DNA from: Parundibacterium terreum
GTDB taxonomy: Bacteria > Pseudomonadota > Gammaproteobacteria > Burkholderiales > Burkholderiaceae_D
Assembly (NCBI RefSeq): GCF_014636315.1
Contig: NZ_BMED01000002.1
Location: 930,001-994,000, forward strand
DNA length: 64,000 nucleotides
Direction: 5' to 3'
In this document: positions 16,447 to 53,400 of the stretch, piece by piece
Position numbering within the stretch: the stretch's first letter is position 1
Layout of the letters: the number at the start of each line of letters is the position of its first letter
Translations under genes and position numbers: made by a program
Notes under the pieces: model-generated
Databases searched by the model: none
What the model saw: the letters and a program-made list of their open reading frames with translations, nothing else
What the model was told of the DNA's origin: nothing

Positions 16447-16472
16447 TTTCACAAAAACTGGGCGCCACAGTA

Positions 16473-17156: not shown

Positions 17157-17385
17157 TTTGTTGAGCTAACCCTATAAAACTAGGCACACGTTCGACAGCT
17201 TAATGCCGTAAGCTGGAGAATATCCTATGTGCGTGAAGACGCATGTGAGAGACCCCGGAACGGCTGCTTGACTTTCGCCTCACGAATCTGAGCGCGCTTG
17301 CAAGCTACATGTCACCATGTGTACTGCCCTAATAGCACCTTAGAGTCATTCTAATTAGCCACTGAATGCACCAAATCCCACCCCA

Positions 17386-17637: not shown

Positions 17638-17709
17638 TACACTTCTCTTAACAATACTAAATTGGCAATCCAAGCTTAAGGATTGCCCAAAACAGAATTA
17701 TTTCACACA

Positions 17710-17880: not shown

Positions 17881-17956
17881 AGCGACCTTTTATGATGAAG
17901 TCCAAGCCCAACGAAACCCTTTTCGTTCCGCCCAGACCTAAGCCTGAAGGACCGCC

Positions 17957-18127
17957 ATGCTACTCACCCTGCTACCACTACTCCCTTTTTCCTTCGCGTA
18001 CTTGAGAGGAAAATTAAGCGAGTTAAAGATAGAGCCAGAATCCGGCAATGATGTTTTTGATGCTCTAGCACCACAGGCCGCTACAGGCCGGAACAATCAC
18101 GTCTATCGCAGAACTGACGAATGTTAG
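17957..18127 (+). CDS. Small hypothetical protein (56 aa) with hydrophobic N-terminus
   Basis: ATG 17957 is preceded by AAGGA with a 5-base spacer. The N-terminus (MLLTLLPLLPFSFAYLRGK) looks like a signal anchor; the remainder is short and polar. There is no family match. An overlapping frame from 17892 is also open but less likely. The stretch from 18128 to the next gene at 18287 shows nothing. Confidence 0.35.
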   Translation: MLLTLLPLLPFSFAYLRGKLSELKIEPESGNDVFDALAPQAATGRNNHVYRRTDEC

Positions 18128-32600: not shown

Positions 32601-32702
32601 AAACCAGGCTATCTGATCAACACGCTGACGCCGGTGGTAGGCGATGCGAATTCCTTTACACCGGAATTCAAGTCCTTCCTGGTGAAAGTGGAAAAAGCCT
32701 AA
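29634..32702 (+). CDS. fdnG: Formate dehydrogenase-N/O major subunit, selenocysteine-containing
   Basis: Oxidises formate to CO2 in the periplasm with a molybdopterin (bis-MGD) centre. 1022 residues, with TGA at codon 197 (30222-30224) read as selenocysteine: the context is QARV-Sec-HGPTVAG, the same position and setting as Sec196 of E. coli FdnG. The Tat signal SRRQFLKVTG is at residues 5-14; the [4Fe-4S] site CPYCSVGC is near residue 52. The second half continues in the same frame without break and ends LVKVEKA, like the E. coli protein. Start ATG 29634. A gene finder that ignores selenocysteine will split this into two. It is followed by fdnH and fdnI. Confidence 0.97.
30222..30262 (+). 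promoter_or_regulatory. SECIS element directing selenocysteine insertion at the TGA
   Basis: Directly 3' of the TGA, GGCA (30239-30242) pairs with TGCC (30248-30251) and the loop is GGTCT. A lower stem extends with a mismatch (GG/CC and C-G). The loop sequence and distance from the TGA match the bacterial SECIS of E. coli formate dehydrogenases, where the GGUCU loop contacts SelB (known). It lies in the coding sequence. Confidence 0.85.
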
Positions 32703-32735
32703 AGGCAAAATCGCAGATCAGAACAGGAGAAGAAC

Positions 32736-33659
32736 ATGGCTTACCAGTCTCTCGATATCAAACGCGCATCCGCCACGACGGTGCAGCCGACGTCGGTGCG
32801 CGAACCGGTGACCGGCACGGTGGCAAAGCTGATTGATGTGAGCAAGTGCATAGGTTGCAAGGCCTGCCAGACCGCCTGCATGGAATGGAATGACCTGCGC
32901 GACGAAGTCGGCGATACCGACGGCACCTACAATAATCCGCGCGACCTGACCGAGCACTCATGGACGGTGATGCGTTTCACCGAATATGAAAATCCGAAAG
33001 GCGACCTGGAGTGGCTGATACGCAAGGACGGCTGCATGCACTGCGAGGACCCAGGCTGCCTGAAAGCCTGCCCTTCGCCGGGCGCCATCGTGCAATACAC
33101 CAACGGCATTGTCGATTTCAATGAAGAGCATTGCATAGGCTGCGGCTACTGTGTCGCCGGCTGCCCTTTCGACGTGCCGCGTATCTCGAAGAAAGACAAT
33201 CGCGCCTATAAATGCTCGCTGTGTTCAGACCGCGTCGCAGTCGGGCAAGAGCCGGCCTGTGTCAAGACCTGCCCTACCGGCGCTATCGTGTTCGGCACCA
33301 AGGAAGACATGAAACAGCATGCGGAAGAACGCATTGTTGACTTGAAATCACGCGGTTTCGAGAATGCCGGCCTATATAACCCGGCCGGTGTCGGCGGCAC
33401 GCATGTGATGTATGTGCTGCATCATGCAGACAAGCCGCATATTTATCACAAGCTGCCGGACAACCCTAGCATCAGCCCCATGGTGGGTTTGTGGAAAGGC
33501 CTGGCCAAGCCGCTGGCGGTGGCCGGCATCGTGGCAACCGCGTTGGCCGGCTTCTTCCACTACACCAGGGTGGGGCCGAACGAGGTCAGCGACGAAGAGG
33601 AACGCGAGGCCAAGCAGGCTGCGGCAGACCTGAAGGAGAAGCAAAATGAACCGGGATAA
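32736..33659 (+). CDS. fdnH: Formate dehydrogenase beta subunit (four [4Fe-4S] clusters)
   Basis: 307 residues. Carries electrons from FdnG to the cytochrome b subunit. Four cysteine groups are visible: [35 protein letters not shown] and CSLCSDR...CVKTC. A single hydrophobic segment near residue 265 ([15 protein letters not shown]) anchors it to the membrane, and the tail is charged. The AGGAGA ribosome site precedes ATG 32736. Its last 14 bases overlap fdnI, whose ribosome site (AAGGAGAA) is inside this gene. Confidence 0.95.
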
Positions 33660-34293
33660 ACACGGCAGCCCTGAGATAGTCCGCTACACGCCCAACGAGC
33701 GCAGCAACCACTGGATTACCGCCATCTGCTTCGTGCTGCTGGCGATATCCGGCTTGTCGATGTTTCACCCGTCCATGTTCTGGCTGAGTAATGTGCTCGG
33801 CGGCGGACAATGGACGCGCATCCTGCACCCATTTATCGGCATCGTGATGTTTGTGTCGTTTGCCATCCTCGTTTTGCGCTTCTGGCATCACAATATGCTG
33901 GAGCCTGGAGACATGCAGTGGATGAAGCAGGTGGATGACGTGCTGAACAACCGGGAAGAAAAACTGCCCAAGGTAGGCCGCTACAACGCTGGCCAGAAGC
34001 TGCTGTTCTATGCAATGGTGATCTGCATGGCCGGTCTATTGCTTTCAGGAATCGTGATCTGGCGCGCCTATTTTTCGCTGTACTTCCCCATAGACATCAT
34101 CCGCGCAGCAGCGCTGCTGCATTCGGTGTGCGCGCTGGTACTGATCCTTGGTATTATTGTGCACATCTATGCAGCTCTGTGGATCAAGGGGTCGATAGGC
34201 GCAATGACACGTGGCACGGTTACCTATGGCTGGGCCAGGAAACACCACCGGCGCTGGTTTGAAGAAGTCGTCAAAGATTCCAGCGCAAAATAG
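33646..34293 (+). CDS. fdnI: Formate dehydrogenase gamma subunit, cytochrome b556
   Basis: 215 residues with four membrane spans. It binds two b-type haems and passes electrons to quinone. [18 protein letters not shown] (span 1), [23 protein letters not shown] and [22 protein letters not shown] supply the candidate histidine ligands. It overlaps fdnH by 14 bases. An intrinsic terminator follows the stop. Confidence 0.94.
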
Positions 34294-34345
34294 TTTGAGG
34301 ATAGTCTGGAATAGCCTGAAAGAGTTTTTGTAGCTCCTCGTGGAA

Positions 34346-34371
34346 TTGACCGCCTTCGGGCGGTTTTTTTT
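34346..34371 (+). terminator. Intrinsic terminator after fdnI
   Basis: ACCGCC and GGCGGT pair around a TTCG loop (34349-34364), followed by eight T. It separates the fdnGHI transcript from fdhE-selAB, although read-through is possible. Confidence 0.9.
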
Positions 34372-34568
34372 CGGCCCGATTTCAGGCGTCTTCTTGTTAA
34401 CGATTTGCCACACATCGCCGTACGCTTTTGTACCGCCGCATTTGTAAAAGCGTATTACAATATCTTCGCAGCATCATTCTCGCCCATACCAGACCCAGCG
34501 GAGTCAGCAGCCTCACCAGACTCACTTTACTGTGAGCCATCAGACCTGCCTTTTGAAAAGGAAATCTT

Positions 34569-35585
34569 TTGGTACAACGCATACTAGAACGCGGCGAGAT
34601 CGAAGCACTGGATCATACCTCCCTGCCCCGCCTGCGCCTGCCGGAATTAGGCGGCGTCTTCGCCCCGCGTGCGGCGCGCCTGCGTGAGCTTGCGGCCGGC
34701 AAGGTTGCCGGCATACCGGTTAATCCTGAGCTGAGCGGCTACCTGCTGCTGATGGCCGATATGGTCAGCGCCCAGGCGGAGACCCTGGCCACCCTGAATA
34801 CAAGCGATGCCGGCCTGCCGGATGCGGCCACGATGGAACGGGCGCAGCAGCATGCGATGCCTCCGCTGGCGGCATTTGCGCCGCGCGGCCCGGCATGGCG
34901 CGGCATACTCACCACCTTGCTGGACAAGCTGGATAGCGTCGCCGCCCGCCAAATAGAAATTTCCATTGTGATCGCTGCCTTGCGCACCATGCCGGTGGAA
35001 GAACTGGAAGCACTGGCCGATGCCGTCATTGCCCAGCGCATAGACGGCTTGAATGCCGCGCAAGCGCCGTTTATCGCCGCCGCGCTGCAGGTATTGTGGA
35101 CTTACCAGGCCAGCCATCTGCAGCAGCGCCAGGTACCGGTGCTGGAAACCGGCACCCTTTGTCCGGTGTGCGGCTCGCATCCGGTTGCCAGCGTGATACG
35201 CATAGGCGGCCAATCGCAAGGCTACCGCTATCTACAGTGCAGCCTGTGTTCCAGCGAGTGGCATATGGTGCGGGTGAAATGCTCTTGCTGCGAGCAAAAC
35301 GGCAAGATTTCCTATCAGGGACTGGGATACCTGGACGCCGCAGACGATACGGCAAAAGGAGCGGCGGCGCCGGGTAATAAGGCCAACGATCCAGGCAAAT
35401 TCGCCCGTGCAGAAACCTGCGACGATTGCCACGGCTATCGCAAGATCTTCAACCAGGAGCATGACTACAATGTAGAGCCGTTGGCCGACGACCTCGCCAG
35501 CCTGACACTGGACGTGCTGGTCTGCGAAGCAGGCTATCTGCGCGCCAGCGTCAATCCGCTGCTGTGGCTGGGCAACCTGGCATAG
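34569..35585 (+). CDS. fdhE: Formate dehydrogenase accessory protein FdhE
   Basis: 338 residues, rubredoxin-like protein needed to assemble active membrane formate dehydrogenase. Paired cysteines bind iron or zinc: CPVCGSHP, CSLCSSEW, CSCCEQ and CDDCHGY. The sequence GYRYLQCSLCSSEWHMVRVKC is typical of the family (only parts quoted). It appears to start at TTG 34569, preceded by AAAAGGAAAT; no nearby ATG in frame fits as well. It lies between fdnGHI and selA. Confidence 0.93.
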   Translation: MVQRILERGEIEALDHTSLPRLRLPELGGVFAPRAARLRELAAGKVAGIPVNPELSGYLLLMADMVSAQAETLATLNTSDAGLPDAATMERAQQHAMPPLAAFAPRGPAWRGILTTLLDKLDSVAARQIEISIVIAALRTMPVEELEALADAVIAQRIDGLNAAQAPFIAAALQVLWTYQASHLQQRQVPVLETGTLCPVCGSHPVASVIRIGGQSQGYRYLQCSLCSSEWHMVRVKCSCCEQNGKISYQGLGYLDAADDTAKGAAAPGNKANDPGKFARAETCDDCHGYRKIFNQEHDYNVEPLADDLASLTLDVLVCEAGYLRASVNPLLWLGNLA

Positions 35586-35589
35586 CATC

Positions 35590-37053
35590 ATGCAACCCGA
35601 ATCTACCCCCGCCACACAAAGGGCTGTCAAGCTGCCCTCGGTCGATAAACTCATGCTTGATCCGTCTGCCCTGCTGCTGACGGAAAAGTATGGCCGCACT
35701 CGCGTAGTGAATGAAGTGCGCAAGCTGCTGGCGGAACTACGGGTAGAGGCATTAAGCCATGCCGGAGCAATGGAAAAGGCTGGAGAAGCCGACATTTCCA
35801 CTATCGTTTCATCCGTTTCCGAGCGCCTGCGGCAAGCCGATGTGTCGCCGCTGAAATGCGTGTACAACCTGACCGGTACCGTACTGCATACCAACCTGGG
35901 CCGTGCCCTGCTGCCGGATGTGGCGGTGCAGGCGGTGATGCAAGCGTTAAGCTCGCCGATGAACCTGGAGTTTGACCTGGAGACCGGCAAGCGCGGCGAC
36001 CGCGACGACCTGGTGGAAGACTTGCTATGCGAGCTGACCGGCGCCGAGGCGGCAACCGTCGTCAATAACAATGCAGCGGCGGTGCTGCTGCTGCTCAGTA
36101 CGCTGGCAGGCGAACATCATGGCGAAGTCATCGTCTCGCGTGGCGAACTGGTGGAGATAGGCGGTGCCTTTCGCATTCCGGACATCATGCTGCGCGCGGG
36201 CGCCAAATTGCATGAGATAGGCACCACCAACCGCACTCACCTGGCCGATTACGCCAACGCAATCAATCCACAGACCGCATTGATGATGAAGGTGCATTGC
36301 AGTAATTATGCAATCAGCGGCTTTACCAAGAGCGTGGACCTGGAGCAGATCGCCGTACTGGGCCGCGAACGCGGCATCCCTACCGCCGTGGACCTGGGCA
36401 GCGGCACGCTGGTCGATCTTTCCGAATACGGTTTGCCGCGTGAGCCTACCGTGCGCGAGACTGTAGCCGCGGGCGCGGACCTGGTAACCTTCAGCGGCGA
36501 CAAGCTGCTGGGCGGACCGCAGGCCGGTATCATTGTCGGCCGTGCCGACCTGATTGCAAAAATCAAACGCAATCCGCTGAAGCGCGCACTGCGCGTAGGC
36601 AAGCTGACGCTGGCCGCGCTGGAGCCCGTGCTGGCACTATACCGCGCGCCGGAAATGCTGAGGGACAGGCTGACCACGCTAAGGCTGCTGACACGCCCGC
36701 GGGCCGACATGCAGCAGCAGGCGGAACAACTGCTTCCTTTGCTGCAGCAGGCATTAGGCAGTGCCTATCTGGTCAGCGCGGAAGCGATGCTGAGCCAGAT
36801 AGGCAGCGGCGCACTGCCGGTGGACCAGTTACCCAGCTACGGGCTGTCCATACGCGCCGCGCTTGAACACAAGCAAAGCAATGCGCTGGGCAAGCTGGAA
36901 AAATTGCTGCGCGACTTGCCGCGCCCGGTACTAGGCAGGATAGCGCAAGACGCGCTATGGCTGGACCTGCGCTGCCTGGAGGCGGCGCAACAGCCGGAGT
37001 TTGCCCAGCAACTGGGGCTACTGCGCGCATCACACCTTACAGGCGGCCAATGA
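35590..37053 (+). CDS. selA: L-seryl-tRNA(Sec) selenium transferase
   Basis: PLP enzyme, known to form a decamer, that converts Ser-tRNA(Sec) to Sec-tRNA(Sec) using selenophosphate. 487 residues, near the usual 460. N-terminal helical domain (about 1-70), then [32 protein letters not shown] and the PLP-lysine motif [14 protein letters not shown] (about residue 300). The start ATG 35590 lies 4 bases after the fdhE stop. Its stop overlaps the selB ATG by four bases. Confidence 0.96.
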
Positions 37054-39029
37054 TCGTCGGTACTGCTGGCCACATCGACCACGGCAAGACCACGCTGACG
37101 CGCGCCCTCACCGGCGTGGATACCGACCGGCTGAAAGAAGAAAAAGCGCGTGGCATCTCGATAGAACTGGGCTATGCCTATACTCCGCTGCCGAACGGCG
37201 ACGTGCTGGGACTGATCGATGTGCCCGGCCATGAAAAACTGATACACACGATGGCAGCCGGTGCCAGCGGCATTGACTATGCGCTATTGGTCATCGCAGT
37301 AGATGACGGCATCATGCCGCAAACTCGCGAGCATCTGGCGATATTACAATTGCTGGGCGTGCGCCAGGCGGCCGTTGTATTGACCAAGATAGACCGTGCG
37401 GACGCAACAAGAATAGCTGCGGTTGAAGCCGATATCGCGTCCCTGCTGGCGGGCACCCTGTTTGCCGGTGCGCCGGTCTTCCGCACGCAGGCAAACGCAG
37501 AAGGCAATCCCGGCGTGGCATCGCTGAAGCAACACCTGGAAGATATCGCGCAAGCGATGCCGCCGCAGCATGAAAAGCGGCTGTTCCGGCTCGCGATAGA
37601 CCGTGTTTTTACCCTGAGCGGCCACGGCACCATCATTGCCGGCACCGCACTGGCAGGCTCCGTCCGTGCCGGTGATGAGTTGCTGCTGGCCCCGTCCGGA
37701 AAACTGGTGCGGGTGCGCAGCATCCATGCACAAAACAGGGCTGCAGAAACAGGGTTGGCCGGCCAGCGGCTGGCGCTGAATCTGGCAGGCATAGAGAAGG
37801 AAAATATTTCCCGCGGCGACTGGATCCTGGCACCGGCGATGGCGCAATGTTCGGACAGGCTGGATGTAGAGCTGGATATGCTGGCTGATGCAGGCGTAAC
37901 ACTCAAGCCCTGGTCACCCGTGCATGTGCACCTGGGGGCAGCCCATCGCACCGCGCACGTGCTGATGCTGGACACGGCTTCCAGCGATGCCCTCGTACCG
38001 GGCCAGCATGCCAGGGCACAACTGGTGTTTGACGCTCCTGTGCATGCGGTGCCGGGCGACCGCTTTGTGTTGCGCAATGCACAGGCAAGCCGCACCATAG
38101 GCGGAGGCCGCGTGCTGGATCCTTTTGGCCCTGCGCGCAAGCGGCGCAGCCCGGCACGGCATGCCTGGCTGGACGCGCTCAGGCTATATCTGGAATCGGG
38201 CGATGCATCGCTATTGCTGCAGCATAGTCCGCTGGGCTTGAGCCGCTCCAGCATGATGCGCCTGACGCACCTGCCGGCTGAACAATTGCATTTTGGTGAG
38301 GGCATCTGCAGCATTCCCTTACGTGGCGACGATGCGGTACTGATATCGACAGCGGCACTGGAAGCTCTCGCAAACAGGGTGCTACAGGCCCTGCGCAGCT
38401 TTCATGAGCAATTTCCCGATGAAATGGGGCCCCAACTTCCCCGCCTGAAACGCATCGTAGAGCCGGACGCCGAGGAACAGGTGTGGAAATACCTGATCCA
38501 GCAATTAGGCGCATCCGGCAGACTGATACAACAAGGCCCCTGGCTGCGCTTGCCCGAACATGCAACGGAGCTGAAATCGCAGGAGCAGGCGCTGGCAGAC
38601 AAGCTGATGCTTTCCCTGCTCAACGCAGGCTTTGATCCGCCCTGGGTGCGCGATCTGGCGAAAGAGCAGCGGGTGGCGGAAAATGAAGTGCGTGACTTGC
38701 TGCGCAAACTGGCCATGCGCGGCCAGGTGTACCAGGTGGTGCGCGACCTGTTTTATCATCCGCAGCGCATCGCCGAGCTGTCCAGCTTGATCAAGGATAT
38801 TGCCAGGGATGAAGCCGCCGACGGCAAGGGCGGGAAAGGAAAAAAGCAGAATGCAGGCACGGTCAACAAGGCGGTGGACGCTGCCGGCTTCAGGGATGCG
38901 AGCGGCCTGGGCCGCAAACGCGCCATCCAGCTATTAGAATTCTTCGACCGCGTCGGCTATACTCGGCGGCTACGCGACACGCATATTTTGCGGGCGGATA
39001 GCCAGTGGCAAGCGAATGACCTGTCTTGA
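37050..39029 (+). CDS. selB: Selenocysteine-specific translation elongation factor SelB
   Basis: 659 residues. Brings Sec-tRNA(Sec) to the ribosome and binds the SECIS. GTPase domain with G1 GHIDHGKTT (residues 7-15), G3 DVPGHEK, G4 TKID; EF-Tu-like domains 2 and 3 (to about 370); C-terminal winged-helix repeats (about 380-655) that bind SECIS RNA. I start at ATG 37050 because the protein should begin [13 protein letters not shown]; the frame is open to 36957 but that part belongs to selA in another frame. The ATGA overlap indicates translational coupling with selA. Confidence 0.96.
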
Positions 39030-39087
39030 GTTACCTTAACTTGGCCTCAGAAAACTAGAGGCTGTCTAACAATTTATATGAAAATAA

Positions 39088-39183
39088 GGAAGGCAAACGT
39101 GTCCGGTGATGCGGGCGGGCTTCAAACCCGTCAGGGGATGTCTATCATTCTCTCGTAAGTTCGACTCTTACTGTCTTCCGCCA
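39088..39183 (+). tRNA. selC: Selenocysteine tRNA, anticodon TCA
   Basis: 96 bases including encoded GCCA. The 8-bp acceptor stem GGAAGGCA / TGTCTTCC, the 6-bp anticodon stem around loop CTTCAAA (anticodon TCA at 39122-39124), the long variable arm (GGGGATG / CATTCTC) and the T-arm GTAAG-TTCGACT-CTTAC all fit bacterial tRNA(Sec). It lies 58 bases after selB and completes the locus. Confidence 0.95.
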
Positions 39184-42793: not shown

Positions 42794-43804
42794 TTATGCA
42801 GCAAACAGCATCTGTCCTGCCGCTTCCGTAGTTGTATCTTCGCTGACTTCGACAGCAGCTTCCTGCGAGACAGTGGATGCCGTCAAGGCTGCTGCAGCGA
42901 TCGTTGCATTTGCCACCTGGGTGGCAGCCTCGCTGCTCATTGCCGGTGTCGGCGCGACTCCGGCGCGGCGATTCTGCAGCATGACCAGGCGTTCCATGTA
43001 GGCCAGATCCTTTGCTTCCAGCTTGAAGGCCGATTCGGCCCAGTCTTCGGTAATCGCGATCAGCTCTGCCTTGTCCACCGGCAGCACGCGGCGGCGAGTA
43101 CGCAGCATCGCGCGTATGCCGTTAATCTTTGGGCGTATCTCATCGATCAGCGTGCGAGCCGCTTTCTGCGCATCGCCCTGCTCAAATACGCGGTCTACCA
43201 GACCGCGCTCCTTATACCATTCTGCAGTGTGGGCTTCGCCGCTGCTGATCAGCTCTTCCGCCAAACCGCGATTGGCCTTGCGCGTCACCAGCGAATAGGC
43301 TCCCATGCCTGGATACAGGTTGAAAGCAATCTCGGGGAACCCCATCTTCACATCTTTCTGGGCGAGCACATATTCATGCGCCAGCGCTGCCTCGTAGCCG
43401 CCGCCCATTGCGGTGCCTTCTATCATGGCAATCGAAATAGCGCCGATATCAAAACCGACTGTGGCTGCATAGACCGCATCCACGCACTCATGTGCATAGG
43501 TACGCAGGGCCTCGGTCTCACCGGCGCGTATGTGGCGGGCAAAATACGACAGATCGCCGCCTACATTGAAGATGCCGGGAGCAGAAGAGCCTGTGACCCA
43601 GAAATCGATAGGCAGACCGCTGTCCTTTGCCGCTGCCCTGAGCGTGCGTATGTCTTGCAGCAGCTCCGGGTTGAAGCAAGGCCGTGGATAGCCGTGCAGC
43701 ATGACCCACAGCACATTGCGGCCTCGCTCATACCAGGCGTTCATTTGGGATAGTGGTCCGGCTTCGGTGAAGGGTCGGCAGTCGGGATGATTTTTGAAGT
43801 CCAT
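42794..43804 (-). CDS. rpfF: DSF synthase RpfF (crotonase family)
   Basis: 336 residues. Makes cis-2-unsaturated fatty acid signals from 3-hydroxyacyl-ACP, acting as dehydratase and thioesterase. The crotonase core has IEGTAMGGGYEAALAHEY and FPEIAFNLYPGMGAYS; Glu138 and Glu158 match the two catalytic glutamates (141 and 161) of Xanthomonas RpfF. The C-terminal about 50 residues are an Ala/Thr/Glu-rich extension (for example ATIAAAALTASTVSQEAAVE) beyond the usual 290-residue length. The start ATG 43804 has an AAGGAA site. The gene is convergent with rpfR (36 bases apart) and 20 bases downstream of the desaturase gene, so probably in an operon with it. Confidence 0.92.
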   Translation of the reverse strand: MDFKNHPDCRPFTEAGPLSQMNAWYERGRNVLWVMLHGYPRPCFNPELLQDIRTLRAAAKDSGLPIDFWVTGSSAPGIFNVGGDLSYFARHIRAGETEALRTYAHECVDAVYAATVGFDIGAISIAMIEGTAMGGGYEAALAHEYVLAQKDVKMGFPEIAFNLYPGMGAYSLVTRKANRGLAEELISSGEAHTAEWYKERGLVDRVFEQGDAQKAARTLIDEIRPKINGIRAMLRTRRRVLPVDKAELIAITEDWAESAFKLEAKDLAYMERLVMLQNRRAGVAPTPAMSSEAATQVANATIAAAALTASTVSQEAAVEVSEDTTTEAAGQMLFAA

Positions 43805-43824
43805 GTCAATATTCCTTATATTTC

Positions 43825-44973
43825 TTATGCTTGAACTAGGGATTCCTGATGTTCAAGAACTAAACGGCATGTTGGCGTAGTTGGTACCCCATCGAAATCA
43901 AGCCAACAGTGATTTTCGTAGTCATACAATTTGCATTTCTGAAAAATGTCTCTCAGCGCCGCAATGGAAAAATCGACGACGATGGCGCGCGCGCCCAGCA
44001 TCTGGTTCATGCGTGCCTGCGCTGCCCACAGCTCGTAGCAGGGAATTGCAGGATAGGCGTGGTGCGCAGGATGCTCATAAAAATTATGCACAAGATTGGC
44101 AAACCATTTTGGAAAGCGCAAATGCACAGTCATGTGCTCAGGCTGCACTTTCTTTTGCAACTTGCTGTCGACGCCAAACCACGGGATATCGGGATGGGTG
44201 TGATTGATATACAGCGAAGCCGACAGCAGCGACTGGAATACAAAGAACGGCAATACAAATCCGAGCAGAACGGCTGTCACCGAGCCTATCGGCGCATACA
44301 GCGGCGCTGCAATCAGCATGGCTATGAAAGCGACAAAATAAGTTACTACGAAGGCGGTGTGCTTCCACGCCGACGCGCGATGTGCCTTTGGCAAAAACGC
44401 ACCTGGCATGAACTTCACTTGCGACCAGCGCTGCAGGATGTAATAGCAGCCGAACGCCAGCGGATTGCCGGAACGGATAAAGCGGTACCACTGTTTTTTT
44501 ACCGGAGACAGCGCATCGTAGGCGGCCTTGGACAGAGGCTGATAAGAGTCGACGTGCTCGCCGTTGGTATGCGGGTGATGCAGCGCATGGTGGTCGTATA
44601 CCCACAAGCGGTAATTGAACAGACAAGGCATGAAAGACAGCACGCTGATCCACCAGTTCAGGCGGCGCGAAGGTGTCAGGCTATTGTGTGCACCCTCATG
44701 GGCAATGGATGCCAGGTTGGCGATTTTTACACCGGCAATGACCGACGCTATGATCTTCAATGTCAGCGAAGGTAGGAACAGCACGGCGGCAATTGCAGCC
44801 ACGAACAGGCTGAAATCTGCAACGAAAATCGTCAGGCCTTTCCGTGTATCCGGCTTCGCGTACGCAGCCATTTCCTTCACCACATCTCGATGCGAGGGCT
44901 GATCGGTCTGGGCCGCTAACTGGGTAGCGACACTGCTGGTCAATGCTGTCGTGGATCGCGCAAACAAAGTCAT
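43825..44973 (-). CDS. Fatty acid desaturase, membrane-bound
   Basis: 382 residues with about four to six hydrophobic segments. The three His boxes of membrane diiron desaturases are HEGAH (about residue 93), HHALHH (about 128) and HPAHHAYP (about 310). Introduces a double bond into acyl chains or a related lipid; the substrate is unknown. It sits directly upstream of rpfF and may supply unsaturated precursors or adjust membrane fluidity in the same response (inference). The start is ATG 44973. Confidence 0.85.
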   Translation of the reverse strand: MTLFARSTTALTSSVATQLAAQTDQPSHRDVVKEMAAYAKPDTRKGLTIFVADFSLFVAAIAAVLFLPSLTLKIIASVIAGVKIANLASIAHEGAHNSLTPSRRLNWWISVLSFMPCLFNYRLWVYDHHALHHPHTNGEHVDSYQPLSKAAYDALSPVKKQWYRFIRSGNPLAFGCYYILQRWSQVKFMPGAFLPKAHRASAWKHTAFVVTYFVAFIAMLIAAPLYAPIGSVTAVLLGFVLPFFVFQSLLSASLYINHTHPDIPWFGVDSKLQKKVQPEHMTVHLRFPKWFANLVHNFYEHPAHHAYPAIPCYELWAAQARMNQMLGARAIVVDFSIAALRDIFQKCKLYDYENHCWLDFDGVPTTPTCRLVLEHQESLVQA

Positions 44974-45259
44974 TTTATTGCACCGGATAAGGGGTTGAGG
45001 ACTAGCAACATTTGTATCCTACAGTCATCATTGCCGCGCAGAATCGACGAACAGGAGACGTAAACTCCCCCAATTGTGCGCTTTAGCGCAGCGTGCAAAA
45101 ATCATAAAAAATGAAAAAGAAAGCGCTGTTTTACCTATGAAAAAACAGGCAGTTGATGCTCAAAAAAAGGCGGGGAATGAGGAAAAAAGTTTAAAACGAC
45201 AAGACCGCGGAAAGGCTAAATGGAAATATTTTTTAAAATATTTTTTGGATGTGTGGCTT

Positions 45260-46084
45260 TTACGGGCGAACCCCGATGCCTTCGGTGATCATGCCCTTGG
45301 CGCGGATGGCAAGATAGAGTTCAAGTTCCGCCAACTCTTGCGAATCGTAGGCAAAGGGTTCGGCGCGCACGCCGCTCATGCAACCGCGCAAGCGGCGCTG
45401 CAAGGAGCCCATGCCCTGCCACTCCAGGCGATATACGGGATAGCCGGTAGGATGCGCCTGCGGGATCAGGCTGCTGCCAAGGCGCAGGCCCGCACGTTCT
45501 TCATGACATTGCGCACAGGAAAGATCAAGCTGCCCCATGCGCTGCGTAAACCGTTGCAAACCGGCGGCGATATACGGCTTCAGGCGACTATCCTGCGGCG
45601 GTGCAATCGGCATGCCGCGCGACTGGTAGGCGACATAGGCTTCCAGGCTGAGCAAGTCCTGGCTTTCCGAACGAAAACCCTCCGCCAGTTGCTTGGCGGT
45701 ACGGCATAGCTTGATGCGTTGTACCAGATCGACCGGCCGTTTCAGGCCCTCGTCAAAAGCGGGATAGCGCGCAGCGACGCCGCGCATGCTGACCTTGGCA
45801 TCACGATGGCAGGAAGCACAGGACAACTGGCTCTTGCCTGCTGCTTTTCCCCACAGCACCTCGCCATCCTTCACCCACAGCATGCCGGGATTCAGCGCCT
45901 CATTGAGCTGCATCGCCTGCGTGGATGCGCCCATGAATTCAAAGCCGGAGCGGCGCTGGTCGGTTTCAGGATTTTGGCTTTGCTCCTGTTTTTTTTCAGC
46001 AAAAGCCGTTGAGGAAAACAGCAAGGCTGCCATCGCATAGACGAGCATGCCTGCGCAGCGCAGGACCGGTGAAAATGCACTCAT
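45260..46084 (-). CDS. soxA: SoxA, di-haem cytochrome c of the sulfur oxidation system
   Basis: 274 residues with a signal peptide (about 1-29). Two haem sites: CASCH (near residue 88) and CAQCH (near residue 193). RSGFEFMGASTQAMQ, NPGMLWV and the conserved cysteine in LRGCMSGVRAEPF mark SoxA; that cysteine is the persulfide-carrying haem ligand in the family. With SoxX it forms the SoxAX enzyme that couples thiosulfate to the SoxY carrier. It is the last gene of the operon, 12 bases after soxZ. The AT-rich stretch downstream to 45220 may end transcription. Confidence 0.93.
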   Translation of the reverse strand: MSAFSPVLRCAGMLVYAMAALLFSSTAFAEKKQEQSQNPETDQRRSGFEFMGASTQAMQLNEALNPGMLWVKDGEVLWGKAAGKSQLSCASCHRDAKVSMRGVAARYPAFDEGLKRPVDLVQRIKLCRTAKQLAEGFRSESQDLLSLEAYVAYQSRGMPIAPPQDSRLKPYIAAGLQRFTQRMGQLDLSCAQCHEERAGLRLGSSLIPQAHPTGYPVYRLEWQGMGSLQRRLRGCMSGVRAEPFAYDSQELAELELYLAIRAKGMITEGIGVRP

Positions 46085-46096
46085 GGCCTATCAGCC

Positions 46097-46420
46097 TCAG
46101 TCGGCGACGCTGATCTTTGCGGTCTCGGTCTGCGTAAAGCCATTGTCGCCCTCCCAATGAAAGCTCAGCGTGCCGCTCTCGGTTGCGACCGTGTGGAAAG
46201 AGATATACGGATTGGCGGCCACTGCCGAAAACATCTCGGCGCTGAACACTTGCTCGCCATTGTAAAGGCAACTGAAGCGCTGGATGATGTCGCGCGGCTG
46301 TATGCGGCCATCGGCGCCGGGACGGAAGCCGGTCTCCATAGGGTGGCGTATCAGCGTACGGATTTCCAGTATCTCGCCGCGCCTGGCTTGGGCTGGAACA
46401 TTGATGACGGTGCTTGCCAT
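46097..46420 (-). CDS. soxZ: SoxZ, carrier complex partner
   Basis: 107 residues with no signal peptide; it is carried to the periplasm with SoxY. An immunoglobulin-like beta sandwich, recognisable from IRTLIRHPMETGFR and ISFHTVATESGTLSFHWEGDNG. It sits 3 bases after the soxY stop and precedes soxA. Together SoxYZ carries sulfur intermediates on a SoxY cysteine. Confidence 0.93.
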   Translation of the reverse strand: MASTVINVPAQARRGEILEIRTLIRHPMETGFRPGADGRIQPRDIIQRFSCLYNGEQVFSAEMFSAVAANPYISFHTVATESGTLSFHWEGDNGFTQTETAKISVAD

Positions 46421-46423
46421 GGC

Positions 46424-46960
46424 CTACACATCCCCTTCTATGCATGCAGCCAGCGTGACGATCACATCCACGCTGTCGGACCAGAAGCGGCCGTCGCTGG
46501 TCTGTGCAATCGCCACCAGCTTTTGCGAGGTCGCCAGGCGTATGCGGCTGGACACCTCGGCCTTGCCGGCCCTGGGTCCCAGCGTAAACTTGATCACATC
46601 ACGCTGCGGATTTTTTTCATTGAACACGGCTATTTTGACTACATGCTCGGCGGCCGTCATCGGGCTGTCTACGGTGATGGTGATCGGCACGGTATTGCCG
46701 TTATCTACCAGCGTTGCCACGTCCAGCTTGACCTTGCCGGGCAATGCGGCAGCACCGTCTGTGTAGCTGCGTATCGCCGTTGCCAGATCTTCCGAAGGAG
46801 CGGACATCGCCGGGCTCACCACGATCCATGCGCCCAGCACGGCCCCCGCCTTCAGCAAGCGGCGGCGCAGCGGGCTGGCTGCCTGCCCGCTGGATTGATC
46901 TGCGGAGTTCATCTGCTCACCCATCTGCTCACCTGCCTGCTCACTCATTTTATTTTCCAT
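46424..46960 (-). CDS. soxY: SoxY, sulfur carrier with atypical C-terminus
   Basis: About 178 residues. A twin-arginine-like leader (SPLRRRLLKAGAVLGAWIV) indicates Tat export. The body fits SoxY (LVDNGNTVPITITVDSPM, VFNEKNPQRDV). The C-terminus ends VTLAACIEGDV: a Cys is present five residues from the end, but the usual GGCGG swinging-arm motif is not. The start is ATG 46960, inside the soxX end (11-base overlap); ATG 46948 is an alternative. The product would pair with SoxZ. Confidence 0.88.
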   Translation of the reverse strand: MENKMSEQAGEQMGEQMNSADQSSGQAASPLRRRLLKAGAVLGAWIVVSPAMSAPSEDLATAIRSYTDGAAALPGKVKLDVATLVDNGNTVPITITVDSPMTAAEHVVKIAVFNEKNPQRDVIKFTLGPRAGKAEVSSRIRLATSQKLVAIAQTSDGRFWSDSVDVIVTLAACIEGDV

Positions 46961-47462
46961 TGCCTTTTTCGTCGCTACGCAAAGTAGCAAGAAATGCCAC
47001 CACATCCTCTATCTGCTGTGCCGTCAGGATGGTCTTGTCCTGCCATGCGCCTGCCACACGCAACAAGTCCTTGCTGCGATAATAGGACGGCATGATGGTC
47101 TCCGCATTGAAGTGCCGCGCATCCACGATACGCAGGCGCAATTGCCCTATTGTCCAGCGGCTGCCTGCACCCGCCAGGTCCGGCGCCAGATTGCCCTGAA
47201 AGCGCTCCTCCGAAATAGGCCCGGTATGGCACAGCAGGCACAGGCCCTGCTGGCGGCTGGCAACGATGGCGCGGCCACGCGCCGCATCCCCCGGTGATCC
47301 GGTCAGCGATAATGGTATCGCGTCAGCCACTATACTGTAATCCTGCCTCGCCTCTGTCTGCACCTGGGCCTGCGAGGGCCCGGCTGCCAGCGCCAGTAAT
47401 GCCGCCAATGCCGCCACTGCCATCCCCTTATAGGGAAGCAAGGACGGCATTGCGCTGAACAT
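46950..47462 (-). CDS. soxX: SoxX, mono-haem cytochrome c
   Basis: 170 residues with a signal peptide (about 1-32). The haem-binding CLLCH lies near residue 77, and TIMPSYY near residue 123 supplies the distal Met. The sequence GRAIVASRQQGLCLLCHTGPI is typical of SoxX (only parts quoted). It starts 3 bases after the stop of the molybdenum hydroxylase large-subunit gene, so the two are probably co-translated. Forms SoxAX with SoxA. Confidence 0.93.
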   Translation of the reverse strand: MFSAMPSLLPYKGMAVAALAALLALAAGPSQAQVQTEARQDYSIVADAIPLSLTGSPGDAARGRAIVASRQQGLCLLCHTGPISEERFQGNLAPDLAGAGSRWTIGQLRLRIVDARHFNAETIMPSYYRSKDLLRVAGAWQDKTILTAQQIEDVVAFLATLRSDEKGNGK

Positions 47463-47465
47463 CGC

Positions 47466-49670
47466 CTAGGCTTTCAGGCTGTGGTTCTTCAGTGGCAATT
47501 CACGTATGCGCTTGCCGGTCGCTGCGAAGATCGCATTCAGCACTGCCGGTGCCGCTACCGCGATCGTCGGTTCGCCTACGCCGCCCCAGAAGCCGCCGGA
47601 TGGCATCACGATGGTTTCCACTGCCGGCATCTTGTCCATCTTCATCGCCGGATAGGTATCAAAGTTCTGCTGCTCCACGCGACCGTCCTTGATCGTGCAT
47701 TCGCCATACAGCGCAGCGGACAGACCATAGGCAAACGAACCTTCCACCTGCGCCTCTATCTGCTGCGGATTGACCGCGTAGCCTGAATCGGTCGCAGCGA
47801 CTATGCGGTGCACCTTCAGTTCCCCGTCCTTGTTCACCGACACTTCGGCGCACGCAGCGACATAGCTGCCGAAACCCATTGTCTGTGCCAGGCCGCGGAA
47901 TACGCCCTTGGGCGCAGGCTTGCCCCAGCCGGCGCGCTCGGCAACTGCATTCAGCACGGCAAGGTGCTTGGGGCTATTGGCCAGGAACTTGCGGCGGAAG
48001 GCCAGCGGGTCCTGCTTGGTCGCATGGGCCAGTTCGTCGATAAAGCATTCGAAGTAGATCGTATTGTGGTTCAGGTTCACGCCACGCCAGAAGCCCGCCG
48101 GTACGTGATGGTTGCGCATCGCATAATCAATCAGCAGATTGGGGAAGCTATAGCCGAAAGATGCCTCCGGCCCGGGCGGGTTCAGGCCCTGGAACACAAC
48201 CGGGTCTTTGCCGTCCTTGATGCTTTGCGGAGAAATGCTGGCCAGGATGGACTGGCCGGATAAACGCATATGAAAGCCGGTGACATTGCCATTCTCATCC
48301 AGGCCAGCGCTAAGCTTGCACTGCGTGATGGGATGATAGCGGCCATGCGTCATGTCTTCTTCACGCGTCCACAGCAGCTTGATCGGCGTGCCCGGCATCT
48401 GCTTGGCGATCAGCACCGCCTGGCGCACCCAGTCATGCACCGCGCCACGGCGGCCAAAGCCGCCGCCCAGATGCAGCTTGTACACCTCGCATTTGGTCGG
48501 CGGCAAATCTGCGGCTTCTGCAGCCGCAGCCAGTGCCGCTTCGCCATTTTGCGTTGGGGTCCAGACTTCGCAGCGCTCCGGCGTCCACTTGACCGTCGCG
48601 TTCATCACTTCCATCGTCGCGTGATTCTGATAAGGATAGGAATACACGGCTTCTATCTTGCGTGGGGCTGCCGCAATAGCTGCCTTGGCATCGCCATTCT
48701 GGTTGCCCACCGCAGCTTCCGGCGCATCCAGGCCGGCTTTCAGTATCTCTGCAATGCTGGCACTGGACACTTGCGCATTGGGGCCGTAATCCCACTCTAT
48801 AGTCATGGCATCCAGTGCGCTCTTGGCCCGCCACCAGGTGTCTGCAATCACGGCAACGCCGCTGTCGCCGACCTGCACCACCTTCTTGATGCCGGGGCGT
48901 TTTTCTATCGCCGATGCATCAAAGCTTTTGACCTTGCCGCCAAACACCGGGCAATCCTTAATCGCCGCATTCAGCAAGCCCGGCATTTTCAGATCCATGC
49001 CGTAAATCTGCTTGCCGGTCGTCTTGTTGACCGTATCCAGACGGGCCAGGCGCTTGCCGACCAGCTTCCAGTCTTTCGGGTCTTTCAAGGTAACGTTTTC
49101 TGGCGGCGTCAGCTTGGAGGCGGCCAGCGCCACTTTGCCGTAAGTCGTGCTGCGCCCGCTGGCCTTGTGCGTAATCACGCTCTTGGAGACCGTGCATTCG
49201 GCGGCAGGCGCCTTCCATTCATCGGCTGCGGCCTGTATCAGCATGGTGCGGGCTATCGCGCCGCCTTTGCGCACATATTCATTCGATTCGCGTATGCCGC
49301 GGCTGCCGCCGGTGGAGAAGTTACCCCATACACGGTTGCGCGCCAGGCTCTGGCCCGGCGTCGGATATTCGGTGGTGACTCTGGCCCAGTTGCATTCCAG
49401 TTCTTCCGCCACCAGTTGCGCCAGCCCGGTCAGCGTGCCCTGGCCCATTTCTGAGCGGGCAATGCGGATCACGATTGTATCGTCTGGTTTGACGACCACC
49501 CAGGCATTGACCTCGGGAACTTCGGTGGTTTGTGCAGCAGCTTCGCCGCTGAAAGGAATATGGAAGCCTACGACCAGGCCGCCCAATGCGGCAACGGATC
49601 CGCCCAGGAAGCGGCGGCGTGAATGGTTAGGCGCAGCGGCATCGCCGGGCAAGGTAGTGGCGCGGCTCAT
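47466..49670 (-). CDS. Molybdenum hydroxylase large subunit (isoquinoline 1-oxidoreductase beta type), periplasmic
   Basis: 734 residues. A Tat signal ([15 protein letters not shown], about residues 17-31) and the GEAAAQ cleavage region indicate export. The fold is that of the xanthine dehydrogenase family molybdopterin subunit: [10 protein letters not shown] binds the cofactor, [21 protein letters not shown] is at the N-terminus, GFWRGVN in the middle, and [19 protein letters not shown] near the C-terminus supplies the catalytic Glu. No FAD subunit is nearby, so electrons go via the [2Fe-2S] subunit, probably to a cytochrome. IorB is the usual name for this group; the substrate (N-heterocycle, aldehyde or other) is unknown. 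It lies between the small subunit and soxX in one operon. Confidence 0.86.
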
Positions 49671-50170
49671 TTGACGCTCCCGTCTGTGTGCGTGATCTGC
49701 AGATGTGCCAGCTTGGTATCTCCGCCATGCGCAACAACCTTGATCGCGGCCCGCACGCGGTTATAGGTACCGCAGCGGCAGATATTAGTCATCGCATCAT
49801 CGATGTCGGCATCGCTGGGCTTGGGCTTAGTCTTCAGCAAGGCTACCGCAGCCATGATCATGCCGCTCTGGCAAAAACCGCATTGCGGCACATCCATCGC
49901 TGCCCAGGCTTTTTGCACGGGATGAGATCCGTCCGGCGACAGGCCTTCTATTGTGACGATCTTTTGCTTGGCGGTGAGCGCCGCAGCAGGCATGACGCAA
50001 CTGCGGGTAGCGACACCGTCTATATGCACGGTGCAGGCACCGCACTGGGCGACGCCGCAGCCATACTTAGTGCCGGTAAGACCCAATTGCTCGCGCAATA
50101 CCCAAAGCAGCGGCGTATCCTGCTCCGCTTCATATTGTCTTGGCTTGCCGTTGATGTTTAATGTTGCCAT
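49667..50170 (-). CDS. [2Fe-2S] small subunit of molybdenum hydroxylase (isoquinoline oxidoreductase alpha type)
   Basis: 167 residues from ATG 50170 with a GAGGAG ribosome site; the frame is open to 50251. N-terminal plant-type ferredoxin domain ([12 protein letters not shown] and RSC) and a C-terminal [2Fe-2S]-binding helical domain (QCGFCQSGM and NICRCGTY). It transfers electrons from the molybdenum centre of the large subunit. It has no signal of its own, so it is likely exported together with the Tat-tagged large subunit. Its stop overlaps the large-subunit start by four bases (ATGA). It is the first gene of the sox-linked operon. Confidence 0.9.
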
Positions 50171-50471
50171 GCCTGAGCTCCTCAATCTTGTCTGCTGAAT
50201 TCTGTGGAAACTGCCGGGTAGTATCGGTGAAGGAAGCTGCGCATAGCGCATTCTGTGATGACAGACAGCTGCGGAGCTTCGTTGGCGCGCAGATATATTA
50301 CACCTTCTGTTCAGGCCGTGTGCAGCGCTCCTGTATCGCTTTGTTACGCTGCAGCTTCGTTATATTCGACGGGGAATAATGAGGGGCAGGCGCGCGATGA
50401 CACAAGATATAGCCCCAAAAAAAAGGCGCGCCGCAGCGCACCTTTTTTACCGTCGAGACGACGCAAAATAA
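50171..50471. other. Short gap with operon promoter region and a terminator
   Basis: 301 bases upstream of the molybdenum hydroxylase operon and downstream of the amidohydrolase. It holds the terminator at 50417-50448; the rest must carry the operon promoter, but no clear hexamers are seen. Confidence 0.4.
50417..50448 (-). terminator. Intrinsic terminator of the amidohydrolase gene
   Basis: Read on the minus strand: A6-GG, a short GCGC hairpin with a small mismatch, CC and T8. It lies 25-55 bases after the stop at 50472, so the amidohydrolase and the molybdenum hydroxylase-sox operon are separate transcripts. Also T-rich on the plus side. Confidence 0.8.
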
Positions 50472-53400
50472 TCAATCGAGATCTGCGTCTTCTCCCGTGT
50501 TGCCGCCATGCGTATGGCCCCTCGCCTCCACCGGCATCGCAGCACCGCCGGCACCTTCAAAGAAGAAAGGTTTGCGCGCCTTGGGCTTTGCACCGACTTC
50601 ATTCATCGTCGCTGTGTCGTACAGACGGCCATTCAGCATCACCTGCACGACCTTGTCGGACTGGCGTATATCTTTCAGGATATCGGCATCGATGATGGCC
50701 AGGTCGGCCAGCTTGCCGGCCTCCAGCGAGCCTATATCCTTGTCCATGCCCAGATATTTGGCGCCGTTCAGCGTGGCGGTGCGTATGACTTCCAGCGGTG
50801 TCATGCCGCCGCGCGCAAAGGTCCACATCTCCCAGTGCGCGCCCAGGCCTTCGCGCTGGCCATGGGCACCGAGGTTGACCGGCACTCCGGCGCGCTGCAA
50901 CTCGGTGGCGGTGCTGGCGATCTTGAAGACGTTATAGTCCTCTTCCGGAGCCAGCTCACGCCTTATGCTGCGCGGCTCCAGCACCGAGCGCGGCACATAG
51001 CGCGACAGCAGCGGATGACGCCATACGTCGGTATGCGCGTACCAATAAGTCTCGCCGTCCAGCCCGCCATAGCCGACAATCAGCGTCGGTGTATAGCCAA
51101 CCCGGGTCTGCGACCACAACTGCTTAACGTCGTCATACGCATTTGCCACCGGTATCGCATGTTCAACACCGGTGTGGCCGTCGACCACCATCGTCATATT
51201 GGTTTCAAACAGGGAGCCGCCTTCCGGCACGACCATCATGCCGGTCAGGCGTGCCGCTTCCAGTATCTGCTGGCGCTGCTCGCGGCGGGGCTGGTTATAG
51301 CTCTTGACCGAAATCGCGCCACCGGCTTTCAGGCGCTTCAAATGCGTCAATGCATCGTCCAGGCTATTGACGACCGCCGTCATATTGGACTTGGCACCAT
51401 ACAGGATAGTACCGGTGGAAAAAATGCGCGGCGCTACCACTTCGCCAGCACGCTGCATCTCTGCCTGCGTAAAGATTTCCGAGGTCTTGTTGGAAGGATC
51501 GTGCAGCGTGGTCACACCAAACGCAAGCGATGCATAATTGATCCAGCTTTGCTGTGGGATGATTTCATCTTCGCCCATGCCGCCATGCCAGTGCACGTCA
51601 ACAATACCGGGGATGATAGTTTTTCCGCTGGCATCAATCTGTTTCGCGCCTGCAGGTGAAGCGACATCGTCCGCCTTGCCGATGGCAACGATACGATTAT
51701 CCTTAATAACGATGCGGCCATTATCGATGACTTCATCACCCTTCATCGTCACGATGCGAGCACCGGAAATAACGGTTGTACCCGTCGGCTTGCTTGCCGT
51801 TTCGCGGAAACCTATCTTCAGGCCGGCCTCGGCTGGCTTCGGCAGCTCCTTGGGTGCGCCGGGCATGAAGGCAAAGGCATTCTTCAGATCACTACTGAAC
51901 AGCTCGTCGCCCAGAGAAAAATGCAGCTTGCTGCTATCGCCCGACCAATGCAGATAATCACCTGCATTCACGTCCAGCTGCTTGACCGGCAGCGCTTCAG
52001 CCTTGGGTCCTATCGTCACCGCCTTGCCGGCCAGCGGCAGTGGCGTAACATAGGTGTGGAAGCGCTCCTGATACGCCAGCCACGCGCCATCCGGCGACAG
52101 CGCAAAATCGCTGACGAACTCGCCGGTAGCCACGCTCTGCTCTTCTTTAGTCCTGCCGGGCTTGTTGTCCAGATTGATGCGCACCAGCGACGTGGTCCAA
52201 TCCACTTCACCGCTATGCTTAGTGCGTGTGACATACAGCGTATCGCTGTCCTTGCCGAACTGCGGTGCACTGCCTTCTTCGGTCACCAGGCGCGGAGCAC
52301 CCTTGCCGTCGGCATCGACCGCATACACACCAGGCTCCAGCCCGTACCACGGAGTAGTCAGGTAGCCGCCGCGCGACTTGACGAACACGACCTGCTTGCC
52401 GTCCGGTGAAAAGGCCGGTTCCAGGTATTTGCCCGGTGCCTTGGTCAGCACGGTTTCCTTGCCGCTGCGCAGTTCCATGGTTCGCACCGAACCTAGCTTG
52501 TCGTCATCCCAGGTGGTAAATACAATCTGCTTGCCGTCGCGCGAGAACTGCGGGAAAAATTCAAAATGATCATTTTGTTTGCTCAGCCGCTGCGGCACGC
52601 CGTTCGGCAAATCGCGGACATACAAATGTCCCAGCGCCGAATACACGACTTTGTCGCCTTGCGGAGAGACGTTCACCCAGCGTAGCTGATGGACGTCGAA
52701 CTGATCCGGTGCGACCGGAGTTTCCACACGCAGTGCATTGTGGACTTCGCGCGTATCCTTGACGTGGAAGGCGATCTCTTTTGCTGCATGGCTGAAAGGA
52801 TTGACGCGCCAGATCTTGCCCTTGGCCCAAACCACGATTTCCTTGCTGTCGGGCAGCCAGCTAAATGCAGGATATACACCCTGCACCGCCCAGGCTTCCT
52901 GCATATCGCGTTCCAGCTCGCCCCAGGCCGGTGTTTCGATGCCGGTTTTCAGGTCCTTCAGGAATAGCGTGCTCTGGTTGCGCACCCTGCGCACAAAAGC
53001 CAGGTATTTGCCGTCAGGAGAAGGCACTGGCCGGATAGCGCCGCCGGGGCCGCTGACAAAGGCCTTGGTCTTGCCGTCCTGCAGATCCTTGCGGAAGATC
53101 TGGTAAATCTGTTTGTTGGAATTCTTGTTGTACTCAAAGCTGGTGCCCGGCGTCGTATCCTGGGAATAATAGACGTAGCGGCCATCCGGCGAGAAGGCCG
53201 GCTCACCCAGATCTTTTTGCCAGTTCGGTTTTTCATTCAATTGCACGCCTGCGCCGCCGCTGGCATGGTACAGCCAGATTTCGCCGGAGCCCAGCGAGCG
53301 TGTGCCGCTATAGTGCTTGCGTGCAGCGATATACTGTCCGTTGGGATGCCAGACCGGATTATTCAGCAGGCGGAAATTTTCTTTAGAGACTTCATGCGGA

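Follow-up and report, generated by a model that had tools for sequence, protein, structure and literature searches.

The stretch of DNA considered here, referred to as the window, comprises 64,000 nucleotides of Parundibacterium terreum (Gammaproteobacteria; Burkholderiales; Burkholderiaceae_D; RefSeq assembly GCF_014636315.1, contig NZ_BMED01000002.1, positions 930,001 to 994,000 of the forward strand) and carries on its minus strand a tightly packed operon, in which the two subunits of a molybdenum (Mo) hydroxylase are joined to four sox genes in the order iron-sulfur (FeS) subunit, Mo large subunit, soxX, soxY, soxZ and soxA (Table 1). The original prediction, made from the sequence by itself, of six genes with overlaps or gaps of at most 12 bases is borne out by the Pfam and NCBIfam matches: the FeS and Mo large-subunit genes share 4 bases, 3 bases lie between the latter and soxX and again between soxY and soxZ, and 12 bases separate soxZ from soxA. 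As had also been predicted, neither soxB nor soxC nor soxD adjoins the operon in a Pfam and NCBIfam scan of the window proteins, the neighbours being a fatty acid desaturase and a crotonase gene downstream and an amidohydrolase/beta-propeller gene upstream. Signals of the twin-arginine translocation (Tat) type can be recognised by eye on the Mo large subunit and SoxY, and general secretory (Sec) type signals on SoxX and SoxA; the FeS subunit and SoxZ, for which no signal peptide is apparent by eye, are presumably exported together with their signal-bearing partners.

Table 1. The Mo hydroxylase-sox operon and its upstream boundary (positions within the window)
Feature	Position	Strand	Evidence and remarks
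FeS subunit of Mo hydroxylase	49667..50170	-	Pfam Fer2 and Fer2_2
Mo-binding large subunit, xanthine oxidase family	47466..49670	-	Pfam MoCoBD_1 and MoCoBD_2; Tat-type signal [15 protein letters not shown] at residue 402; Glu700 in GVGEP; clade-specific Trp695
soxX	46950..47462	-	TIGR04485 81 bits, cut-off 61; CLLCH (one c-type haem); TIMPSYY motif
SoxY-related carrier, AACIE arm	46424..46960	-	start not settled: ATG at 47005, 46960 or 46948
soxZ, SoxY partner	46097..46420	-	Pfam SoxZ; TIGR04490 84 bits, cut-off 76
soxA	45260..46084	-	TIGR04484 214.9 bits, cut-off 110; two CxxCH
Likely intrinsic terminator of the upstream amidohydrolase gene	50417..50448	-	GGTGCGC TGCG GCGCGCC, then eight T; by eye

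The best clue to the nature of this operon, overlooked in the original prediction, is the carrier arm of its SoxY. The protein does belong to the SoxY family, matching the SoxY structures 2ox5, 2oxg, 4uwq and 2nnc, but it is not a true SoxY, as it passes TIGR04487 ('SoxY-related AACIE arm protein'; 197.8 bits, cut-off 172) and fails TIGR04488 (true SoxY; 92.9 bits, cut-off 125). Its C-terminus reads VTLAACIEGDV, with the arm AACIE in place of the canonical GGCGG; the arm cysteine is retained, whereas the surrounding glycines are not. SoxA has kept the haem-ligand cysteine (RLRGCM) and matches the structure 1h31_A (E 2.9e-39).

With respect to the Mo enzyme, Pfam matches and alignment reveal the Mo-binding domains, the two [2Fe-2S] domains and the GEP-motif glutamate of the xanthine oxidase family, in agreement with the xanthine-dehydrogenase-type family predicted for it. 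The isoquinoline oxidoreductase type that had also been assigned is, judging from the matches, a family label only: no NCBIfam model reaches its cut-off for the large subunit, and the best match among solved sequences is 8gy3_C, the large subunit of an aldehyde dehydrogenase (E 9e-77). For the FeS subunit, too, every NCBIfam match stays under its cut-off. Glu700, which we take to be the catalytic glutamate, is invariant in an alignment of eight sequences.

The association of this enzyme with sox genes is conserved. In a first sample of 196 genomes, that of P. terreum included, searched with the TIGR04487 profile, 19 genomes lie above the cut-off of the model and 31 contain a match of at least 119 bits, taken as strong. 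Of these 31 genomes, 30 have FeS and Mo genes next to soxY (divergent in one, L076; loci are labelled L and genomes G), and in the thirty-first (G087) the contig stops inside soxX (L051), while another contig carries FeS-Mo-soxX to its end (L119). The surroundings were inspected for all 31; the weaker matches were compared by eye with the list of Mo paralogues, and few of them were fetched. In a phylum sample of 398 genomes, FeS-Mo genes accompany soxX-Y-Z-A in all 20 genomes with a match of at least 158 bits (including three that also belong to the 31), and Mo genes were seen in none of the 24 surroundings inspected among the 32 weaker matches listed (at most 145 bits). A further contig search found the Mo subunit at nine of nine loci, the contig of L044 being cut before the FeS gene. 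The same gene order, for which the original prediction had proposed to search in relatives, is thus widely kept, and the linkage spans beta- and alphaproteobacteria. It also occurs on plasmids of Neorhizobium galegae, Methylobacterium and Roseomonas marmotae, indicating that the block is able to move as a unit; in N. galegae the Mo gene is absent from the listed annotation and was matched by the profile in two pieces, and it may therefore be interrupted. Nine genomes of 6-9 Mb with the Mo-linked type, seemingly from the family of Tardiphaga (L121, L122, L169-L174, L177), are probably Bradyrhizobium. Chance adjacency can be rejected on the strength of these counts (30/31 and 20/20), as can a decayed remnant of a canonical cluster, the genes in the window being open and the SoxY forming a branch of its own (see below).

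In turn, the type of SoxY arm goes along with the partner enzyme. A Mo enzyme lies within 7 kb of 46 of the 51 SoxY proteins lacking a GGC arm, and SoxB near none of them (0/51); for SoxY with a GGC arm (n = 37) the corresponding numbers are 2 for the Mo enzyme and 22 for SoxB. Identical SoxY proteins were counted once in this comparison (L123, equal to L041, and L057, equal to L038, were removed), three fused or arm-less rows were excluded, and both soxY fragments of L083 were kept. In a SoxY tree of 86 rows, from which the L083 fragments were excluded and in which L051 was counted as Mo-linked, all 47 Mo-linked rows of types I and II are placed on the same side of a branch supported at 97/94. 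The Mo hydroxylase therefore belongs with soxXYZA, as originally proposed, and is tied to a special SoxY arm: the association is real, conserved and more specific than in the original prediction, and this variant Sox machinery has a carrier arm and a Mo enzyme peculiar to it.

Of the five non-GGC rows without a Mo enzyme, one is L051, at a contig end, and the others come from L082, L141 and L083, where soxY is broken into two fragments that make up two of the rows. L082, L083 and L141 represent another type, in which SoxYZ with the arm ATNGC(R/K/L) precedes a small cytochrome and a flavocytochrome c sulfide dehydrogenase, and no SoxXA, SoxB or Mo genes are found in the stretch; SoxYZ beside flavocytochrome c has also been reported in SAR324 (PMC4782131). 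In the two GGC rows with a Mo enzyme nearby, L151 and L152, the arm is IGGCLG, and the Mo enzyme, which is clustered with SoxC, is a different one (39-40% identical). This second pairing (L151, 6000-18000; L152, 1-8400) combines SoxC, SoxY, SoxZ, the other FeS-Mo hydroxylase and a divergent flavocytochrome c, in L152 also a cytochrome; the distance between soxZ and the FeS gene is 0.6 kb in L152 and 3.9 kb in L151. SoxB was found in neither of these two genomes, which belong to one genus.

Two types of Mo-linked loci can be distinguished, type I with soxX and soxA in addition to FeS, Mo, soxY and soxZ, and type II with the latter four genes only. In all 39 type I loci SoxX contains one CxxCH and the alignment column of the SoxA haem ligand a cysteine, and a flavocytochrome c sulfide dehydrogenase (family verified on one example) lies within 7.5 kb in 21 of the 39, as it does in 9 of 11 loci of one phylum-sample set. 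The seven type II loci (L063, L065, L067-L071) have arms such as AGCGL or SSCG; the contig of L070 stops just past soxZ, SoxA of the same genome being on other contigs. SoxX and SoxA, pointed to in the original prediction because the Mo enzyme needs a cytochrome acceptor, can thus not be its obligatory electron acceptor throughout the group, although all seven type II genomes encode SoxA elsewhere. In six of them (L159-L164, one place each) there is a soxX-Y-Z-A set without soxB in the stretch, with a GGC arm in five and the end of L161 not shown by the reading frame used, and SoxB was found nowhere in four of these six genomes (G154, G179, G131, G189).

More generally, SoxB was not found in 14 of 31 and 4 of 17 Mo-linked genomes of the two samples (18/48 in total), or in 17 of 45 when the count is restricted to genomes with a completeness of at least 90% and a contamination of at most 5%, and the Mo-linked type therefore does not need SoxB. 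In the genome of P. terreum, the soxB search proposed at the outset yields a single gene above the cut-off, on another contig, in a canonical cluster (L003) consisting of flavocytochrome c, SoxC, a cytochrome in the SoxD position, SoxY (GGCGG), SoxZ, SoxA, SoxX and SoxB, the soxD assignment resting on position and two cytochrome c domain matches. By its gene content the organism thus seems to possess a complete thiosulfate system besides the Mo-sox operon. A second cluster with soxB and soxC, together with a loss of the linkage in relatives, was what the original prediction had expected to see if it was wrong; the cluster exists, but the linkage is conserved. The genome also encodes at least three further Mo large subunits, 41-43% identical, with no SoxY in the surrounding stretch (L118, L157, L158); at most five candidates were scored per genome in this search, so that paralogue numbers are lower bounds.

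A tree of the Mo large subunit (64 rows; quick method, with support by the Shimodaira-Hasegawa-like approximate likelihood-ratio test, SH-aLRT, only, and without frames shorter than 600 amino acids such as that of L044) places 52 rows on one side of a branch (SH-aLRT 100), namely all 46 linked rows (types I and II) along with six unlinked ones; L119 was labelled as linked, the second Mo copy of L053 (opposite strand, within about 5 kb of the soxY of that locus) as unlinked. Type I by itself is not one group in this tree (4 changes). Trp695, five residues ahead of Glu700, is present in 52 of 52 rows of this clade and replaced by proline in 11 of 12 outside rows and in 8gy3_C, which suggests a changed pocket, common also to the six unlinked members.

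In comparison with the canonical Sox system (SoxXA-YZ-B-CD), the operon shares SoxX, a SoxY-family protein, SoxZ, SoxA with its haem-ligand cysteine and a periplasmic Mo enzyme, but it lacks SoxB and SoxCD, its Mo enzyme is of the xanthine oxidase family, and AACIE stands for GGCGG. By their sequence motifs the type I loci encode a SoxXA with cysteine-ligated haem, as expected of a canonical system, whereas the operon of the window has neither a true-SoxY arm nor a SoxB gene of its own. TIGR04487, to which the SoxY of the window belongs, is named for the arm only; to this the present data add a constant Mo hydroxylase partner, a subtype without SoxXA and the occurrence in genomes without SoxB. 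Periplasmic Mo hydroxylases of the 8gy3 type have in common with the window enzyme an FeS and a Mo subunit, a signal on the large subunit and the motifs GGGFGRR and GEP; the latter differs by Trp695 for proline and by its operon with soxXYZA. Finally, the quinoprotein-associated carrier TIGR04557 is likewise a SoxYZ-type carrier associated with a cytochrome-linked oxidoreductase of the periplasm, but it is fused and linked to pyrroloquinoline quinone (PQQ), whereas SoxY and SoxZ of the window are separate and score 53.9 and 42.4 bits (cut-off 140); this fused type was rejected, there being no match above the TIGR04557 cut-off in the genome.

Carrier-bound substrates have no precedent for Mo hydroxylases of the xanthine oxidase family among the literature matches listed, and we know of none. 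Likewise, no paper on a Mo hydroxylase-sox pairing was among the matches listed, most subscription journals being outside the coverage, and neither the AACIE arm nor soxXYZA combined with isoquinoline gave a match. The available parts of PMC5373536, PMC2864759, PMC7074706 and PMC11582611 do not describe the pairing, and those of PMC4782131 contain no link between isoquinoline 1-oxidoreductase and sox. In a broad study of SoxY, sequences without the GGC motif were dropped before tree building (PMC11237559), a filter that would have excluded the Mo-linked group; other divergent SoxYZ proteins are argued there to serve carbon metabolism, and a review of the ped cluster describes a SoxYZ-like carrier beside PQQ alcohol dehydrogenases (PMC12997753). 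In Bradyrhizobium diazoefficiens, which has two soxY genes, only soxY1 and not soxY2 is essential for thiosulfate oxidation (PMC5748708). As the Mo-linked type is found in nine probable Bradyrhizobium genomes, the dispensable soxY2 may be of this type.

Taken together, we tentatively favour, at somewhat less than an even chance, the view that the operon encodes a periplasmic module independent of SoxB and SoxCD, with the altered SoxYZ carrying a sulfur substrate and the Mo hydroxylase oxidising it there. SoxXA would oxidatively load a sulfur nucleophile, not necessarily thiosulfate, onto the arm cysteine of the altered SoxY, and the flavocytochrome c sulfide dehydrogenase, where present, might provide a second loading route from sulfide. 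The Tat-exported Mo hydroxylase would then oxidise the carrier-bound group in the position held by SoxCD in the canonical system, and electrons might pass via the two [2Fe-2S] clusters to a c-type cytochrome, either SoxX/SoxA or, where encoded, a small FccA-like cytochrome. The simplest reading of these genes would be that loading of the altered arm with a sulfur compound is still the task of SoxXA and is followed by the action of the Mo enzyme, and the idea in the original prediction that the Mo hydroxylase takes the place of SoxCD in the operon is a fair, if unproven, picture. The retention of the Mo enzyme and SoxYZ alone in type II is as expected if both work directly together, and the different Mo enzyme beside SoxYZ and SoxC in L151 and L152 counts in the same direction. 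In the related SoxA family member TsdA there is evidence for an S-thiosulfonate on the ligand cysteine as an intermediate (PMC4423706), and a SoxYZ sulfane adduct may carry Sox intermediates (PMC5336275). The substrate could, as a guess, be a small thiol-type organosulfur compound or a sulfane. More specifically, a second branch of Sox might be envisaged in which the Mo hydroxylase hydroxylates, in the periplasm, a substrate held covalently on the SoxY arm, which appears possible but doubtful.

A number of observations weigh against this module. The targets of known enzymes of the Mo family are C-H bonds in aldehydes and N-heterocycles, and the family is not known to attack sulfane sulfur. Six of the 52 enzymes of the Mo group (L111-L116), one of them 76% identical to that of the window, have no SoxY nearby and yet carry Trp695; the enzyme can therefore be kept without the carrier, and Trp695 is no mark of the latter. 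The pairwise distances of Mo subunit and SoxY are correlated (0.775 over 43 loci, species history uncorrected; L041, L043 and L044 were left out), but as this value exceeds that for the Mo subunit and its own FeS subunit (0.639), it is no specific measure of partnership. Fisher p-values for the comparison of arms and partners overstate significance, the rows being related and collected via TIGR04487 matches. Type II shows that a local SoxXA is dispensable, no flavocytochrome adjoins the operon of the window, and SoxAX activity without the ligand cysteine has been described in a report cited in PMC4423706.

Alternatively, the Mo hydroxylase might oxidise a free sulfur-containing aldehyde or heterocycle and the released sulfur enter flavocytochrome c and SoxXA/SoxYZ without any contact between enzyme and carrier, which is close to the hypothesis of the original prediction. 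The six group members without SoxYZ nearby, an aldehyde dehydrogenase subunit as the nearest solved enzyme by sequence and the frequent flavocytochrome c sulfide dehydrogenase at type I loci would be in line with such a flow of sulfur. However, type II has SoxYZ but no SoxXA by the Mo genes, and the change of the arm, which tracks the Mo enzyme, would not be required. Moreover, when the neighbours of 57 loci were clustered (with crude gene calling), no real-looking family apart from the flavocytochrome c pair exceeded 5 of the 57 loci, an ABC transporter ATPase reaching this number; two-component regulators recur in 3-4 loci, and one cluster in 11 loci consists, as far as checked, of frames antisense to soxYZ. 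An organosulfur catabolic cluster was rejected for this lack of a shared catabolic neighbour family, and the oxidation of a free substrate is on the whole unlikely, with something over one chance in five left to it in our judgement.

An accessory role of SoxYZ, which might for instance renew the terminal Mo=S ligand of the exported enzyme or shield it from thiols, is less likely again. It would account for type II and for the second Mo group by SoxYZ in L151 and L152, and it has an analogy in the fused SoxYZ-like proteins accompanying quinoprotein alcohol dehydrogenases, SoxYZ-like carriers recurring by other periplasmic oxidoreductases as well (PMC12997753, PMC11237559). On the other hand, the SoxXA of type I, with its haem motifs and often a flavocytochrome c, is more than maintenance needs, and the three Mo paralogues of the same genome do without SoxYZ nearby. 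One of these, L118, adjoins an XdhC-type gene, and members of the same sequence cluster are present in the linked loci L124 and L125. Given the role of XdhC in the sulfuration of Mo enzymes, sulfuration is probably cytoplasmic there.

It is improbable that the operon is a spare thiosulfate system doing the same job as the canonical cluster, with SoxCD replaced by the Mo hydroxylase. SoxC is likewise a Mo enzyme, and SoxX, SoxZ and SoxA all pass the cut-offs of the thiosulfate-system models, but SoxB is missing from the vicinity of every non-GGC SoxY and from 18 of the 48 genomes, the canonical cluster coexists in P. terreum, and soxY2 of B. diazoefficiens, if indeed of the Mo-linked type, is not essential for thiosulfate oxidation (PMC5748708). 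Least probable of all is a mere block of unrelated genes held together by co-regulation or joint transfer, as operons can contain and as the plasmids of three alphaproteobacteria might indicate, given that the arm type goes with the gene order in beta- as well as alphaproteobacteria, that seven loci without SoxXA still pair the Mo enzyme with SoxYZ, and that SoxYZ of two genomes has a second Mo group beside it.

With respect to the boundaries of the operon, a GAGGAG motif was recognised by eye just 5' of the ATG of the FeS gene, and the likely terminator between the amidohydrolase gene and the FeS gene sets the operon apart from the former; a consensus terminator scan gives another, partly overlapping site (50427-50412). 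A scan of 44900-50600 for sigma-70-type promoters returned no promoter-like site. Downstream (42794-44973), the crotonase (PRK08788, 382.7 bits) lies next to the fatty acid desaturase, an order also kept in L038, and resembles the diffusible signal factor synthase RpfF, under the RpfF cut-off. Elsewhere in the window, a selenocysteine set is arranged in a row at 30219-39183 (SECIS_3 element, formate dehydrogenase subunits, FdhE, SelA, SelB and tRNA-Sec), and within 12151-18000 a transfer-messenger RNA (tmRNA) gene is followed by an integrase of 250 amino acids, of which only the arm-binding and central domains were matched, in a region with a G + C content of 0.42-0.51, perhaps an element integrated at the tmRNA gene.

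In this sample the partner enzyme can be predicted from the arm motif, which allows a clean test. A genome may be scored as that of a thiosulfate oxidiser on the basis of soxA, soxX, soxY or soxZ alone; in view of soxYZ or soxXYZA sets with another arm and a Mo enzyme, for which no soxB was found in more than a third of the genomes, such scoring would probably mislabel the genomes concerned. If the carrier-bound reaction proposed here is true, it would represent a new chemistry for SoxYZ and a new kind of substrate for Mo hydroxylases.

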